Origin: Methanolinea sp.
GTDB taxonomy: Archaea; Halobacteriota; Methanomicrobia; Methanomicrobiales; Methanospirillaceae
DNA: 42,362 nt
Direction: 5' to 3'
Assembly (NCBI GenBank): GCA_029907345.1
Contig: JARYMB010000008.1
Span: 38,741-81,102 of the forward strand
Shown: positions 24,599 through 29,784 of the stretch, piece after piece
How positions within the stretch are numbered: the stretch's first letter is position 1
Layout of the letters: each line of letters starts with the position of its first letter
Translations under genes and position numbers: made by a program
The notes under the pieces: generated by a model
Told to the model about the DNA's origin: nothing
The model's input: the letters and a program-made list of their open reading frames with translations, nothing else
The model's database searches: none

Positions 24599-26098
24599 TC
24601 ATTTGCCCACTTTTATCCTGCGGGCCATGATGCAGGGTCCCCCGCGGACTCCTCCGATGGGGTTTTTTGGTTTTCCAAGGGAATTCATGCACCTGCCCAT
24701 GAGTGCAGCCCCGCGGGCAAGGCCGTCATCCACAAAGACAAGATGATCATTGGGATTGTCAAAGAGATTCCGCTCGATGATTCCCTCGAGGATGTATTCC
24801 GGTTTCCTCCCGGATATCGCTGCCCTCCCCGTGAACCCGATACTGGAATTGGGAAGGACGAGACCGAGATCGTTTGCAACGTCCACGAGCCGCAGCGCCA
24901 TGCGTGCGCAGACCCTGTCGATGACCTCGTTGAGGAGGCCAAGACCATGCCGCTCGTATATCTCACGCCCCAGTTGTGCGAGGTCCGGGAGAGTGCTTCC
25001 GTTCTCACCGGCATCGCAACCGATGAGGGCCACCCCCGATTCCTTTGCCACGTCGGCATAGACCGGCACCCTCCCGAACCGCTTCCTCTCGGGTGGAACC
25101 AGGCGTATGTCGATGAGTGCGTGGGCGCGGTCGACGTAACTTCTGACGACGTCGCTCTGGCCCCTCAATGCAAAATCACTTACCACGCTCCGGTCACCAA
25201 ACACGTCGAGGGCTGTGCCCGTATGGGGATCGACAAGACCGGTACCCTTGATGATCGCATCCGGAACTGCCCCTGCGAGCCCGCAGAAGTTACCGATGGT
25301 CTTTGCGAAGGGATTTGGATCTTTGGGGTCGACGTCGCTTGTTATCCTGCCATCAAGGGTCGTCCCGAAATCGATGGATATGCAGGGGTTCCTGAAATCG
25401 ACAGGTGTCCACTTTGCTCCTTCCTTTATTCCCGCCATTGCAAGTTCCCCCTCCATCTCGTTTGCAACCATCTCGACTCCCGTGCTCCCGACCGGGGGGA
25501 TGACTCCGGCAACTGCACCCACGAAGACGACCTTGTCTGCATAACTGAAGGGTTGAAGCTTCGCCGCCTGGTTTGCCTTCGACATAGGAGGAGTCATCTT
25601 CCGGGGGGGTACCCCTGCAAGCAGGCAGCCGTTGGCAAGGGCGAGAACAAATTCGCCCACCTGGTCCGGCGAGTCCATTGCAGCGACCACTCCCGTGCTT
25701 CGGACCACGAAATCGAGGTCTTTCTGGATATCGAGATGAGCCTCCTCGTGGCACTGGAGGAGGGTATCGCGGACAAGTTCCGTCACCGATTCGCGTGTGA
25801 GCTTCGTCCCGTCGAGGGTCTCGCCAAAGATCTCTTCTCCCGGCTTGGGTTTCCTGACATCCCTGCTCATCCGGACAGTCTTGTGGATGACATAGCTCAT
25901 CCCTGTCTCGAGGTTCACACCGGTCAGGATACACTTTGTCGTGGTGTTTCCCATCTCCACGGATGCCACGATAAAATATGGTTTTATCTTGAACTCGGGG
26001 ACATACACGCCCGGTCCGTGTGCGATGGACGGTGGAGGCGGACTTTCCACGATGTGGGGACGCGGTTTTAAAAATCGATCAAAAAAACGCGCACACAT
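24599..26098 (-). CDS. Methanogenesis marker protein 14
   Basis: A 499-residue protein restricted to methanogens and relatives. Its sugar-kinase/actin-like ATPase features are visible: a phosphate-1-like loop SVEMGNTTTKCILTG near residue 46, a second loop CISIDFGTTLDGR, and LGLVLPNSSIGFTGRAAISG. The fold resembles reductive activators of corrinoid proteins, so a role in activating a methanogenesis enzyme is possible but unproven. I start at ATG 26096-26098 (MCARFFDRFLKPRP); the open frame runs 26 codons further, but a TATA element sits there. A small unassigned gene follows in the same operon. Confidence 0.85.
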   Translation of the reverse strand: MCARFFDRFLKPRPHIVESPPPPSIAHGPGVYVPEFKIKPYFIVASVEMGNTTTKCILTGVNLETGMSYVIHKTVRMSRDVRKPKPGEEIFGETLDGTKLTRESVTELVRDTLLQCHEEAHLDIQKDLDFVVRSTGVVAAMDSPDQVGEFVLALANGCLLAGVPPRKMTPPMSKANQAAKLQPFSYADKVVFVGAVAGVIPPVGSTGVEMVANEMEGELAMAGIKEGAKWTPVDFRNPCISIDFGTTLDGRITSDVDPKDPNPFAKTIGNFCGLAGAVPDAIIKGTGLVDPHTGTALDVFGDRSVVSDFALRGQSDVVRSYVDRAHALIDIRLVPPERKRFGRVPVYADVAKESGVALIGCDAGENGSTLPDLAQLGREIYERHGLGLLNEVIDRVCARMALRLVDVANDLGLVLPNSSIGFTGRAAISGRKPEYILEGIIERNLFDNPNDHLVFVDDGLARGAALMGRCMNSLGKPKNPIGGVRGGPCIMARRIKVGK

Positions 26099-26124
26099 AT
26101 ATATCGAATGAGAAGCTTTGGGGG

Positions 26125-26132
26125 CATATATC
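26125..26132 (-). promoter_or_regulatory. TATA box of methanogenesis marker 14 gene
   Basis: GATATATG on the minus strand is centred 30 bases before the chosen ATG and predicts a nearly leaderless transcript. A second TATA-like run (26095-26105) overlaps the start codon itself. Confidence 0.45.
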
Positions 26133-26294
26133 TTTCGATTTACACTACCGGCTCGTCTATTCGCAGTTTTTACCACGCGGACATACCTGCTCCGGGTGCC
26201 AATTTACCGCACTGGATGGATGAGAGCCCCGCCATTCCGGATTGCCGCTTGCGAATCACAACTTTTTTATCGGGACACCGAGAAAGGGCTTAAC

Positions 26295-26489
26295 ATGGAT
26301 TTGCAGGACCCCCGTGGATGGGTCTTTTACTACCTGATCTGTTTTGTAGCCCTGCTCTGGGTAGGTTTTCTCTCGGCCCAGGGCGTGATGATCTTTGTCA
26401 GCCTCTTTCTCACCCTCATCGTGCTCGGATTTTCTGTAATCCTCTGTGCCATGCTCATCTTCGAAATAAGGAAGGAACGGGAGGAGTAA
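26295..26489 (+). CDS. Small two-helix membrane protein
   Basis: A 64-residue protein with two hydrophobic helices (about 10-30, YYLICFVALLWVGFLSA; and 32-55, MIFVSLFLTLIVLGFSVILC) and a charged tail EIRKEREE. No family is recognised. TTTTTTAT at 26263-26270 is a TATA candidate placing the transcript start almost at the ATG, so the mRNA may be leaderless. It precedes another small membrane protein in the same direction. Confidence 0.65.
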   Translation: MDLQDPRGWVFYYLICFVALLWVGFLSAQGVMIFVSLFLTLIVLGFSVILCAMLIFEIRKEREE

Positions 26490-26571: not shown

Positions 26572-26817
26572 ATGCGGACAAGTTCGGTAACAATGCTTCT
26601 CATTGCGGTCCTGATGATTATCATCATCCTTGCCCTCATCGTGATCATCGGACTGACTGTGATGCTCAAAACGGGGGGTGCATCCAGCCATGAGGAGAGT
26701 GCGATCATGCAGTTTGTCACTTTTTCCCAGGAACAGGCAATCGGGATATTCGATGCAATCAGGCAGTGGTTTGACTACCTGATAGTCCAGATCCAGAAGA
26801 TTTCCGAGTACCTTTGA
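26572..26817 (+). CDS. Small single-pass membrane protein
   Basis: An 81-residue protein with one long hydrophobic segment (about 6-33, including VLMIIIILALIVIIGLTVML) followed by an outward or cytoplasmic amphipathic helix (EQAIGIFDAIRQWFDYLIVQ). No family is recognised. GAGGGGAG precedes the ATG at good spacing and ctttaagt (26531-26538) is a TATA candidate, which supports a real gene. Confidence 0.65.
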   Translation: MRTSSVTMLLIAVLMIIIILALIVIIGLTVMLKTGGASSHEESAIMQFVTFSQEQAIGIFDAIRQWFDYLIVQIQKISEYL

Positions 26818-26969
26818 TGAAGGATGGAACAAACGGAATCATCAAAAATAGAGGTCCTTTTTCCCTGTTTTATTCTGTCTCCGGGCGACATTGTGCACCA
26901 ACTCTAGTTTCCCGGTGTTTCTGATATCCCCCTGTAGCCATTTCCAGCCACCGGTTCCCCGTGTGATAA

Positions 26970-27025: not shown

Positions 27026-27307
27026 ATGGTACAGATGGTCAGGGTCAATGGCAGGAACAGGGGCGATATCCGCCTCTATGCACTCTCCACGTGCGGGTGG
27101 TGTGCTAAGACCAAGGAACTCCTCAATTCTCTCGGAGTGGAGTATAGCTATGTATTCGTCGATCTCCTCCCGAAGAAGGAGCTCGAGGATACTCTCCTGG
27201 AGGTAGAGAAGTTCAACCCCGCAGGGTCCTTTCCCACCCTTGTCATCAACGGGTCGAGGGTCATCGTCGGGTTCAGGGAAACAGAAATACGGGAGGCACT
27301 CCGGTGA
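27026..27307 (+). CDS. Glutaredoxin-like thiol oxidoreductase
   Basis: A 93-residue thioredoxin-fold protein with the redox motif CGWC at the start of helix 1 (LYALSTCGWCAKTKELL), a cis-proline region SFPTLVINGSRV and a closing VGFRETEIREAL. The layout is that of NrdH/glutaredoxin-like proteins, which reduce disulfides in target proteins. Its stop overlaps the start of the disulfide reductase gene by four bases (GTGA), so the two products are probably a reductase-carrier pair. ATG 27026 is favoured; MVRVNG three codons later is an alternative. Confidence 0.88.
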   Translation: MVQMVRVNGRNRGDIRLYALSTCGWCAKTKELLNSLGVEYSYVFVDLLPKKELEDTLLEVEKFNPAGSFPTLVINGSRVIVGFRETEIREALR

Positions 27308-27807
27308 GCGGTGACGAAATTCCCCGGGAACTGATCGAAGAAAAAGTCTCTGCCCTCCGGAAGGATGCAGAGTCGGGGGGGTATTTTCTCAATCCGGATG
27401 CCGGATTTGTCTGGCAACTCGCGAGGGGACTGTGCATCAACGAAAAACGATACGGGTACCCATCCTGTCCCTGCAGGCTTGCCGTGGGCAGGAGGGAGGA
27501 AGACAGGGACATCATCTGCCCCTGTGACTACCGCGACCCCGACCTCGAGGAATTCGGGGCCTGTTACTGTGCCCTCTATGTTTCGCCCTCTGTTGCACAG
27601 GGAAAGACTGCGCCCCTACCTGTTCCGGAAAGGCGCCCCACGAGGTCAGAAAGAGTATCCGTGGCAACCCGCGCCGGAAGAACGATCGACGTTCCCCTGC
27701 CCGTCTGGCGGTGCAGGGTATGCGGGTACCTTTGTGCACGCGAAACACCCCCACTCGTCTGCCCGGTCTGCAAGGCATCAAAGGACCGGTTTGAACGTTT
27801 CATGTGA
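27304..27807 (+). CDS. Ferredoxin:thioredoxin (disulfide) reductase catalytic subunit fused to rubredoxin domain
   Basis: A 167-residue protein with GTG start. Residues 1-100 match the FTR catalytic subunit: C44, SCPC (C55, C57), CPC (C72, C74) and CYC (C87, C89), which hold a [4Fe-4S] cluster beside an active-site disulfide. Residues 135-160 form a rubredoxin-like knuckle pair, CRVC (137, 140) and CPVC (153, 156), expected to bind iron. A fused enzyme of this type, ferredoxin:disulfide reductase, is known from Methanosarcina acetivorans. It should pass electrons from ferredoxin to the overlapping glutaredoxin-like protein. No FTR variable subunit is nearby, as usual in methanogens. Confidence 0.9.
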   Translation: MSGDEIPRELIEEKVSALRKDAESGGYFLNPDAGFVWQLARGLCINEKRYGYPSCPCRLAVGRREEDRDIICPCDYRDPDLEEFGACYCALYVSPSVAQGKTAPLPVPERRPTRSERVSVATRAGRTIDVPLPVWRCRVCGYLCARETPPLVCPVCKASKDRFERFM

Positions 27808-27866
27808 GGCAGAAATGGCAAAGGATGCAGATCCGGGTGCAGGAAAAAAAAAATCTCCCTTCGATC

Positions 27867-27879
27867 CCCCGACTCGGGG
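27867..27879. repeat. Short GC palindrome between FTR and Cys-rich gene
   Basis: CCCCGA-C-TCGGGG is a perfect 6-bp inverted repeat about a single base, preceded by an A10 run (27844-27853). It could be a weak hairpin or an operator; the evidence is only symmetry. Confidence 0.35.
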
Positions 27880-27923
27880 TCATGTGCACACGCTCATGTA
27901 TCCCTGCGCCAAACAGGTAGTGC

Positions 27924-28283
27924 ATGGCTGCAAAAATCGTCATCGAGATAGTGGGCCTCGCGGACTCTTCGTGTTCACCGTTTCCCTGTGACAACACCCG
28001 GAGTTGTGGTCTCTATGACTGCCACCCGACAGGAAAGCTCGTCCCGGCATTCGAAGCACTGAAAAAGGAGCTCATCAGCCAGTACGGGGATACCATAGAA
28101 ATCACGCTGACACTGATAGATAAGGAGATCCCTTCCCGTATCAGGGACATTATTGCAGAGAATTACCCGCCGATCCCGTTCGTGATCATCAACGGTAACC
28201 TTGTTCCGATGGGAAGAATTTCCCTGCCCCTGATGCAGAAAGAGATAGAAAAGAGGAGGGAAGGCCTCAGGCGACCTTCGTGA
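27924..28283 (+). CDS. Unrecognised Cys-rich thioredoxin-fold-like protein
   Basis: A 119-residue protein. Four Cys sit near the N-terminus in two pairs, C17-SPFP-C22 and C28-GLYD-C33, right after the first strand (KIVIEIVGLA) where thioredoxin-fold proteins carry their active site. A helix, a strand (TIEITLTLID) and PPIPFVIINGNLVPMG, which looks like the cis-proline strand, complete a thioredoxin-like order. I cannot name a family. It follows the FTR gene by 116 bases in the same direction and is likely another redox carrier or metal-binding partner. Its 3' end overlaps the convergent carbonic anhydrase gene by 17 bases. Confidence 0.75.
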   Translation: MAAKIVIEIVGLADSSCSPFPCDNTRSCGLYDCHPTGKLVPAFEALKKELISQYGDTIEITLTLIDKEIPSRIRDIIAENYPPIPFVIINGNLVPMGRISLPLMQKEIEKRREGLRRPS

Positions 28284-28848
28284 GTTCCCCGGTTTCCAGG
28301 TTATAATAGAGTCCATGGATCTGGATTTTCTTTTCAAGGAGCGCCTCTTTCACGATGGGGTAATTCTTCAGGTGCTCGATCTGCAGCATGATGTTCTCCT
28401 TTTCGATCATTTCTGACCGTGCCTTCCTCTCCTCGGGTGTTTTCGGGGAAGGGATGCGGGCATCAACGCGCTTCTTTGCCTCGACTGCATTGTTGAGCCA
28501 GAGGGGGATGTACACGTCCGTCGTCTCCTTGTCGAGTGCCTTGATGGCCCCGCAGTCCGAGTGACCGCATATCACGATGTCCCTGACCTTGAGATGACGG
28601 ATGGCATATTCAAGGACCGTCGCAAAGTTCCAGTCGTGCAGGGGAGCGATGTTGCCTATGTTCCGGTGTACAAACAGCGTGCCTGGCATGGCCTGGGTAA
28701 TGTGCCCGGACTGGATCCGCGAATCCGAACACCCTATCCAGAGTACAGAAGGGCTCTGTCCCTTGGTCAGTTCCCTGTAATGTTCCAGGTTTTCCCTGAA
28801 AAAACCCTCTCTGAATTTCCTGTTTCCTTCGAGGAGCTGGTCAATCAT
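28267..28848 (-). CDS. Beta-class carbonic anhydrase
   Basis: A 193-residue zinc enzyme interconverting CO2 and bicarbonate. Zinc ligands C40, H96 and C99 are present in IGCSDSRIQSG and ICGHSDCGAIKAL, along with the D42-R44 dyad. Length is normal for the bacterial-type beta class. In a CO2-reducing methanogen it would balance CO2/bicarbonate supply. It is convergent with the Cys-rich redox gene, the coding ends overlapping by 17 bases. Confidence 0.93.
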   Translation of the reverse strand: MIDQLLEGNRKFREGFFRENLEHYRELTKGQSPSVLWIGCSDSRIQSGHITQAMPGTLFVHRNIGNIAPLHDWNFATVLEYAIRHLKVRDIVICGHSDCGAIKALDKETTDVYIPLWLNNAVEAKKRVDARIPSPKTPEERKARSEMIEKENIMLQIEHLKNYPIVKEALLEKKIQIHGLYYNLETGELTKVA

Positions 28849-28948: not shown

Positions 28949-28980
28949 ATTGATATTTGTTCTCCCGGGCCAACATAACG

Positions 28981-29784
28981 ATGAAGGAAATAATGGATTT
29001 TGCACTATCCTGGCAGAAGTCCGGAGAAAGGAAGGCAGTAGCATCCCCATCCGGCCGTTTTTGGGAGATCGATTTCCTGCGGGGTTCTGCTGTTGTCATG
29101 ATGGTGGTGTTCCATGCCGTGTTCGATCTCGCCTACCTCGGGATTCTCGATATCCGGGTCTCGTTTGGTCCATGGAGGTTCCTTGCGATCTGCACTGCGA
29201 CTCTTTTCCTCTTCCTTGTCGGGCTCTCCCTGACCATAAGCAGCGCAAGGGCGGGGGACGAGCTCGACAGGCGTGCGTTTCGACTCAAGTTCATCAGGAG
29301 GGGGGCGGGTATCTTCATGCTCGGTCTCCTCATAACCCTTGTCACCCTTCTCCTTGTTCCCGGGGCCCCCGTACTCTTTGGTATTCTCCACCTGATCGGA
29401 GTCTCTGTCATGCTCGCACCCCTTTACCTCCCTTATAAGAAGGCAAATCTCGTTGCCGGCCTTGCGTTGATAGCGGCGGGCGCAGCGGTGCGCACTGTCA
29501 CCGGGCCGGAATACCTGCTCTGGCTTGGTATCTATCCGGCTGCATTTTCAAGCCTCGATTACACGCCCCTTGTCCCATGGCTGGGCGTCGTGCTGATGGG
29601 TGTCTTTACGGGAAAAGTACTATACCCGGGTGGAAGGAGGAAATTCAACATTCCCGATTTCTCTTTCCCGGGCAGAAGAGAGATCTGCTTTCTGGGACGG
29701 CATTCCCTGATCATTTACCTGGTGCACCAGCCTGTGCTTCTTCTCGTCATCTTCCTCGTATGGGGACTCCCCGGAATCACGTAA
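28981..29784 (+). CDS. DUF1624 membrane protein (heparan-alpha-glucosaminide acetyltransferase-like)
   Basis: A 267-residue polytopic membrane protein. The opening motif WEIDFLRGSAVVMMVVFHAVFDL and the closing LGRHSLIIYLVHQPVL are those of DUF1624 and the wider acyltransferase-3-like group. About seven hydrophobic segments are visible. Relatives of the HGSNAT type move acetyl groups across membranes to sugars; the substrate here is unknown. I chose ATG 28981 because of the TATA box position; a TTG at 28957 would add eight residues. It is convergent with the histidine kinase gene. Confidence 0.82.
   Translation: MKEIMDFALSWQKSGERKAVASPSGRFWEIDFLRGSAVVMMVVFHAVFDLAYLGILDIRVSFGPWRFLAICTATLFLFLVGLSLTISSARAGDELDRRAFRLKFIRRGAGIFMLGLLITLVTLLLVPGAPVLFGILHLIGVSVMLAPLYLPYKKANLVAGLALIAAGAAVRTVTGPEYLLWLGIYPAAFSSLDYTPLVPWLGVVLMGVFTGKVLYPGGRRKFNIPDFSFPGRREICFLGRHSLIIYLVHQPVLLLVIFLVWGLPGIT

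Follow-up and report, generated by a model that had tools for sequence, protein, structure and literature searches.

P3, a conserved four-cysteine protein family of the Methanomicrobiales with a likely redox association and a possible metal site

A described disulfide-reducing pair and its form at this locus

A thiol carrier working with a ferredoxin:disulfide reductase (FDR) is a known pair in methanogens, as described in two reports (PMC6491703; PMC6262447). One of these has FDR reducing a Methanosarcina thioredoxin, called MaTrx5 in its text and entered as a MaTrx1 row in its Table 1 (PMC6262447), and a third gives coenzyme M-dependent disulfide reductase activity for the methanoredoxin of M. 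acetivorans (PMC7278568). The window analysed here is a 42,362-nucleotide stretch of DNA from a Methanolinea sp. (assembly GCA_029907345.1, contig JARYMB010000008.1), whose genome assembly amounts to 1.86 Mb and is 88% complete. An earlier note on this DNA had singled out three consecutive genes, the first two overlapping by four bases, and the reading frames bear this out. The first gene, GRX, encodes a methanoredoxin-like glutaredoxin carrier of 93 amino acids with a CGWC motif (27026-27307, plus strand; PF00462, E = 3.9e-11), read from the ATG at 27026 within a longer mechanical ORF that opens at a TTG at 26891. Sharing the four bases GTGA with it, FTR-Rbx (27304-27807, plus strand) starts with GTG and encodes a 167-residue ferredoxin:disulfide reductase. 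This protein consists of an FTR catalytic domain with CPC, CPC and CYC motifs (residues 17-101; 27352-27606, plus strand; PF02943, FeThRed_B, E = 1.3e-20) and a fused rubredoxin-like domain with C-x2-C ... C-x2-C (residues 135-164; 27706-27795, plus strand; PF21349, E = 2.4e-14). The Pfam domains confirm what the note had named a CGWC glutaredoxin-like carrier and an FTR-rubredoxin fusion. The third gene, P3 (27924-28283, plus strand), begins with an ATG 116 bp beyond the end of FTR-Rbx and encodes a four-cysteine protein of 119 amino acids. All three genes are conserved across genomes, so none of them is a chance ORF.

A sequence search of the PDB matched the reductase to 4tpu over residues 11-167 of 167 (E = 1.3e-54), an entry that is named Rubredoxin and that we take to be the FDR of Methanosarcina acetivorans. 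Both proteins join an FTR catalytic domain to a C-terminal rubredoxin domain, although in the alignment the linker between the domains is shorter in the window's reductase. For GRX, the matches were 5cax (E = 3.1e-28), aligned over residues 6-92 of 93, and 3nzn (E = 4.6e-28); both entries bear the name Glutaredoxin and are presumably Methanosarcina proteins, and 5cax we take to be methanoredoxin. Like 5cax, GRX belongs to the glutaredoxin family and carries the S-T-C-x-W-C motif, which reads CVWC in the two structures and CGWC in the window's protein. Chain A of 7pwe, by name a ferredoxin-thioredoxin reductase subunit B, matches GRX in its residues 6-81 and the reductase in its residues 87-191. 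The two matches fall in separate stretches, so a GRX-like and an FTR domain are fused in that chain, whereas the window has two overlapping genes. The 7pwe chain covers the FTR part alone of the window's reductase (residues 10-114) and does not match its rubredoxin domain.

Cysteines 55, 57, 72, 74, 87 and 89 of the reductase, its rubredoxin cysteines (137, 140, 153 and 156) and the CxxC of GRX were kept in 29/29 aligned copies, and the rubredoxin motif was found in 42/42. An FTR match of some kind occurred in 119 of the 120 genomes of the order. We counted matches at ortholog level in 99 genomes, the weakest being a split one in G394; the remaining 20 genomes gave best FTR E-values of 7.6e-17 to 1.6e-10. 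In 97 of these 99, GRX immediately precedes the reductase in the same orientation; the exceptions are G429, where no glutaredoxin reached E = 1e-10, and G394, whose pieces fall on different contigs. Judged by sequence, GRX and FTR-Rbx are the order's form of the relay already described. Electrons would pass from ferredoxin to the [4Fe-4S] ferredoxin:disulfide reductase with its fused rubredoxin, then to the methanoredoxin-like glutaredoxin and on to protein disulfides.

The earlier note had supposed that the organism avoids an NADPH-based thioredoxin reductase. That part of it is weakened by a 383-aa ORF of the same genome (L246:7581-8732, equal to G000:C44:111580-112731, plus strand), in which an N-terminal glutaredoxin domain (CPYC) is fused to a thioredoxin reductase-like flavoprotein falling below the NCBIfam cut-off. 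All 21 relatives searched matched TIGR01292 at E <= 1e-20, none over the curated cut-off, in a search whose control matched 14/14 genomes and passed the cut-off in 12. A flavin enzyme resembling thioredoxin reductase thus appears from its sequence to be present. Its donor could be NADPH or F420, so on NADPH the note may still be right. Just upstream of the fusion we read by eye a rubrerythrin-like ORF.

Around the three genes, a convergent beta-type carbonic anhydrase gene (28267-28848, minus strand; PF00484, E = 5e-49), into which the 3' end of P3 runs for 17 bp, is probably not part of the redox system. An HGSNAT_cat-like gene beyond it (28957-29784, plus strand; PF07786, E = 1.2e-68) adjoins the carbonic anhydrase gene at many loci of the window's family. 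On the 5' side lie two small hydrophobic ORFs (26232-26489 and 26572-26817, plus strand), neither over a Pfam cut-off, which are present in 11 of 12 same-genus loci and in 0 of the 46 other loci compared. A gene for methanogenesis marker 14 protein (24602-26176, minus strand; TIGR03285, E = 1.5e-187; DUF2114) lies farther out.

The P3 family and its predicted fold

The earlier note had considered the third component new, and it indeed belongs to none of the family libraries searched: P3 gave no match in Pfam or NCBIfam (E <= 1), PADLOC or PHROGs. Searched against the PDB by sequence, it reached a best E-value of 0.3, mostly with the tails of thioredoxins. Literature searches returned no title on P3, which, for a nameless protein, is no proof of absence from print. 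A BLASTP comparison of GRX with P3 (E = 1.6) showed no relation between the two.

P3 was present in 58 of 61 relatives searched. Across the phylum, a profile of 31 members gave matches in 87 of 392 genomes, of which 82 belong to the order and five, with weak matches, lie outside it; among the order's genomes listed in that search, G380 alone was without a match. One phylum match (G291, E = 5.6e-4) was confined to columns 42-103, which leave out the Cys loop, and was dropped. A pattern scan of 84,980 species genomes confirmed 106 relatives, of which we retained 80, from Methanomicrobiales genera or from archaea lacking a genus name. These 80 loci served solely to establish gene order and naming and were left out of the counts, which refer to the 95 genomes of the order found with P3 by the relatives search and the phylum profile search together. 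The pattern C-x-P-F-x-C-x3-R-x-C-x-L-x2-C occurred in 95/95 of their P3 proteins. The window's P3 has exactly four cysteines (17, 22, 28 and 33), all within this C-x4-C-x5-C-x4-C motif (residues 17-33; 27972-28022, plus strand), and E8, G11, R26, L30, A42, P70 and P85 are further invariant residues among 58 aligned proteins. P3 is retained in eight genomes that have no ortholog of the reductase or the carrier, where weak FTR matches exist.

AlphaFold models of the window's P3 and of a divergent member (mean pLDDT 86.6 and 85.4) have the topology beta-alpha-beta-alpha-beta-beta-alpha. By prediction, the P3 fold is thioredoxin-like, with the Cys loop where CxxC would sit; in both predictions, this loop belongs to the parts modelled with the least certainty (block means 63-85). 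The note's thioredoxin-fold-like label is therefore supported by the predicted structures and finds no backing in sequence families. Foldseek placed 1xg8 first for both models, as the sole PDB match at E <= 0.001 (6.8e-4 and 4.7e-4), with 14 and 18% identity. This structure is presumably SA0789, of family DUF1462. As a family for P3, DUF1462 (PF07315) was rejected, the window's P3 giving no match and 1 of 31 members an E-value of 0.23. In the genomes of 21 relatives there were three weak DUF1462 matches (E = 0.03-0.04) and 0/21 over the cut-off, the control of that search matching 4 of 14 genomes and passing the cut-off in one. Thioredoxins made up most of the remaining Foldseek matches, which also included ArsD (E >= 0.005, TM mostly 0.45-0.6). 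The fold predicted for P3 resembles that of canonical thioredoxin, but the WCGPC/CxxC of the latter is absent from P3, which has C-x4-C-x5-C-x4-C instead. ArsD is likewise of thioredoxin-like fold and is among the weaker fold matches, and we take its cysteine spacing to differ from that of P3; neither P3 nor its 31 aligned members matched the Pfam family (PF06953). We also rejected P3 as a thioredoxin-like [2Fe-2S] ferredoxin: the pattern of those proteins, as we understand it, is C-x(10-12)-C ... C-x3-C, a different spacing, and the window's P3 has no further cysteine.

Genes beside P3 across the order

We compared the neighbourhoods of the 95 P3 loci in six kin groups, f1 to f6, of which f1 is the window's family, using neighbour classes picked after inspection of the data. 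In 37 of the 45 f1 genomes, FTR lies upstream of P3 in the same orientation and at a distance of up to 400 bp. Five more have it within 4 kb, and in G014 the GRX-FTR pair is about 880 bp upstream, for a total of 43/45 within 4 kb; FTR is on another contig in G020 and not found within 9 kb in G013. Outside f1 the arrangement occurs in 0/50 genomes, and in none of the 42 of these where both genes could be located do P3 and FTR come within 5 kb of each other on one strand. The earlier note had proposed surveying the co-occurrence of the three genes and had named missing linkage in other genomes as evidence against its relay. Linkage holds in f1, and its absence is what we find elsewhere. We take the P3-reductase association to be a feature of one family, and the idea that P3 is specific to this reductase finds no support in the 50 unlinked genomes and the eight without reductase or carrier orthologs.

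Other families have other genes in this place. Throughout f4 and f5, the latter including Methanoculleus, an iron-sulfur flavoprotein is encoded just upstream of P3 (22/22). One member matched FMN_red (PF03358, E = 9.5e-21), and all 22 have the compact C-x2-C-x2-C-x4-7-C motif that we take as the mark of iron-sulfur flavoproteins. The gap to P3 is 27-38 bp in six of seven examples and about 330 bp in the seventh (L056), and from the short gap we infer that flavoprotein and P3 share one transcript in f4 and f5. Relatives of this flavoprotein occurred in 20/20 genomes searched, beside P3 solely in three f5 genomes and away from it in f1, f2, f3 and f6 genomes, so this flavoprotein, too, has no fixed link with P3. 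In genus g29 of f6, which is probably a Methanocorpusculum-like genus, a thioredoxin gene (CGPC in 8/8) lies upstream of P3 on the same strand in all eight genomes, none of which has a reductase or glutaredoxin ortholog; weak FTR matches exist there. Among the five genomes of f6 genus g22, the thioredoxin gene is divergent in three, and a ferritin-like gene lies upstream in one. A ferritin-like gene also lies within 2 kb of P3, with another gene between, in two of the four f3 genomes. No FTR, GRX, flavoprotein, thioredoxin or ferritin gene was found near P3 in any of the 11 f2 genomes. Altogether, 20 of the 50 genomes outside f1 (f2, f3 and f6 g22) have neither a flavoprotein nor a same-strand thioredoxin gene just upstream.

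Much of the order shares a frame of divergent carA, P3 and convergent carbonic anhydrase gene, with a family-specific redox gene between carA and P3; 43/95 genomes have carA in divergent orientation at most 5 kb upstream of P3, and in 57/95 the carbonic anhydrase gene converges on P3 at a distance of up to 60 bp. The window genome has 3 thioredoxin, 8 FMN_red, 3 glutaredoxin and 3 FTR matches in its 1.86 Mb (family controls of the thioredoxin, FMN_red and glutaredoxin searches matched in 13, 13 and 12 of 14 genomes), about 0.9% of its genes if one gene per kb is assumed. The chance of such a gene standing directly upstream of P3 in three lineages is then roughly 1e-6, with no correction for the post-hoc classes. 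A redox association of P3 is therefore likely. We conclude that P3 is a new lineage-specific, redox-associated family and not a dedicated partner of the reductase.

To judge from the intergenic sequence, the f1 P3 genes are probably transcribed from a promoter of their own. In 20 f1 gaps, AAATA (9) or ATGTA (8) starts 26-29 bp before P3, with neither in three. A distance so fixed fits a TATA box, with the transcript beginning near the start codon. In the window, ATGTA lies 28 bp 5' of the P3 start (27896-27900, plus strand), as a possible TATA-like element. Two sequences of the FTR-P3 gap gave mostly unvarying pairs on folding as RNA and no evidence of structure, and sigma-70 and terminator scans, which were not made for archaea, stayed at chance level. 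TTTATA occurs seven times in the window against 2.6 expected, the copy nearest to P3 being 658 bp beyond its end.

A possible metal site or dithiol carrier

Relatives of P3 in another family of the phylum bear on what its cysteines may do. Four genomes of this family, f14, encode distant relatives (L169:7451-7834, L170:7685-8044, L171 and L172) in which the motif is C-x2-C-x5-C-x4-H (4/4). Profile comparison with P3 gave a probability of 96.6 (E = 6.4e-10) and set Cys33 on the histidine, and a reverse search with the four relatives found P3 places in 21 genomes of the order at E <= 0.001. Matches of the reverse search in f8 (G192, G343 and G374) covered columns 22-87 of much longer frames and were not used. 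We recognised no redox gene beside the P3 relative in the three f14 loci read. A change from cysteine to histidine at fixed spacing keeps a metal ligand and loses a disulfide, which makes a metal site preferable to a carrier with two disulfides. This pattern, from one outside family, suggests that the Cys loop of P3 is a metal site. The four-Cys motif fits a possible metal site better than it fits the motif of a dithiol carrier. The earlier note had drawn a single relay from ferredoxin to dithiol carriers. Of this, the carrier-reductase pair stands, as a known one, and P3 as one of the carriers is the less likely part. The evidence for the redox setting of P3 is good, and that for the metal loop moderate.

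Our main reading, for which we would put the probability at about 0.5, keeps GRX and FTR-Rbx as the known relay and P3 as a separate protein, most likely a metal-binding redox or repair accessory beside each lineage's reductant. On a thioredoxin-like fold, the usual CxxC would be replaced by the invariant C-x4-C-x5-C-x4-C loop, which would most likely hold a metal, as zinc or as an Fe-S cluster. P3 may then be an accessory of low-potential redox or of the repair of oxidative damage. It would work with the adjoining reductant of its lineage and might receive electrons from it. That reductant would be GRX with its reductase in the window's family, the iron-sulfur flavoprotein for Methanoculleus and one neighbouring family, and canonical thioredoxin for the Methanocorpusculum-like genus.

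A bolder version, which we advance tentatively, makes P3 the founder of a new metal- or Fe-S-binding class of the thioredoxin fold, a single-domain electron carrier or a metal or redox sensor of this one order, whose ferredoxin- or thiol-linked reductase has been exchanged from lineage to lineage. If so, the slot upstream of P3 would record an exchange of redox partners, and the class would have His-bearing cousins in another family.

It seems to us unlikely that P3 itself carries electrons as a dithiol/disulfide protein, in the form of a thioredoxin variant whose two Cys pairs the neighbouring reductase or carrier reduces directly. The thioredoxin-like fold of both models speaks for such a carrier, as do the thiol reductants beside P3 in two families and the proline at position 85, invariant in 58/58, which we suppose may be the cis-proline of thioredoxins. 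However, P3 has no CxxC, its four cysteines being spaced x4, x5 and x4; the fourth is a histidine in its relatives; and it occurs in the eight genomes without orthologs of reductase and carrier. An ArsD-like metallochaperone, or a trafficking factor that delivers or holds Fe-S or other metal for a neighbour, is a rather improbable alternative to the accessory reading. It would account for the Cys4/Cys3His loop, for the ArsD structures among the weaker fold matches (E = 0.03-0.1) and for one f14 relative that reached E = 0.0071 against Pfam ArsD, below the cut-off, but P3 and its 31 aligned members do not match ArsD, and we recognised no arsenic genes among the P3 neighbours read. That P3 belongs to bicarbonate and carbamoyl-phosphate metabolism, as its place between carA and the carbonic anhydrase gene in many genomes might suggest, is very improbable, since divergent and convergent genes share no transcript with it, neither gene was found close to P3 in f6 g29 (0/8), and in f2 the carbonic anhydrase gene is convergent within 60 bp in 1/11 only.

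The methanogens of the order are anaerobes commonly met in wetlands, digesters and guts, and to our knowledge little is known of the means by which they maintain or repair thiols and metal sites once exposed to oxygen. P3 is nearly universal and strictly conserved in the order, and none of the searched libraries models its family. Since the protein occurs next to three different redox systems, three candidate donors offer a direct route to its function. A thioredoxin fold with a Cys4/Cys3His metal loop would, if true, be a little-known use of that fold.
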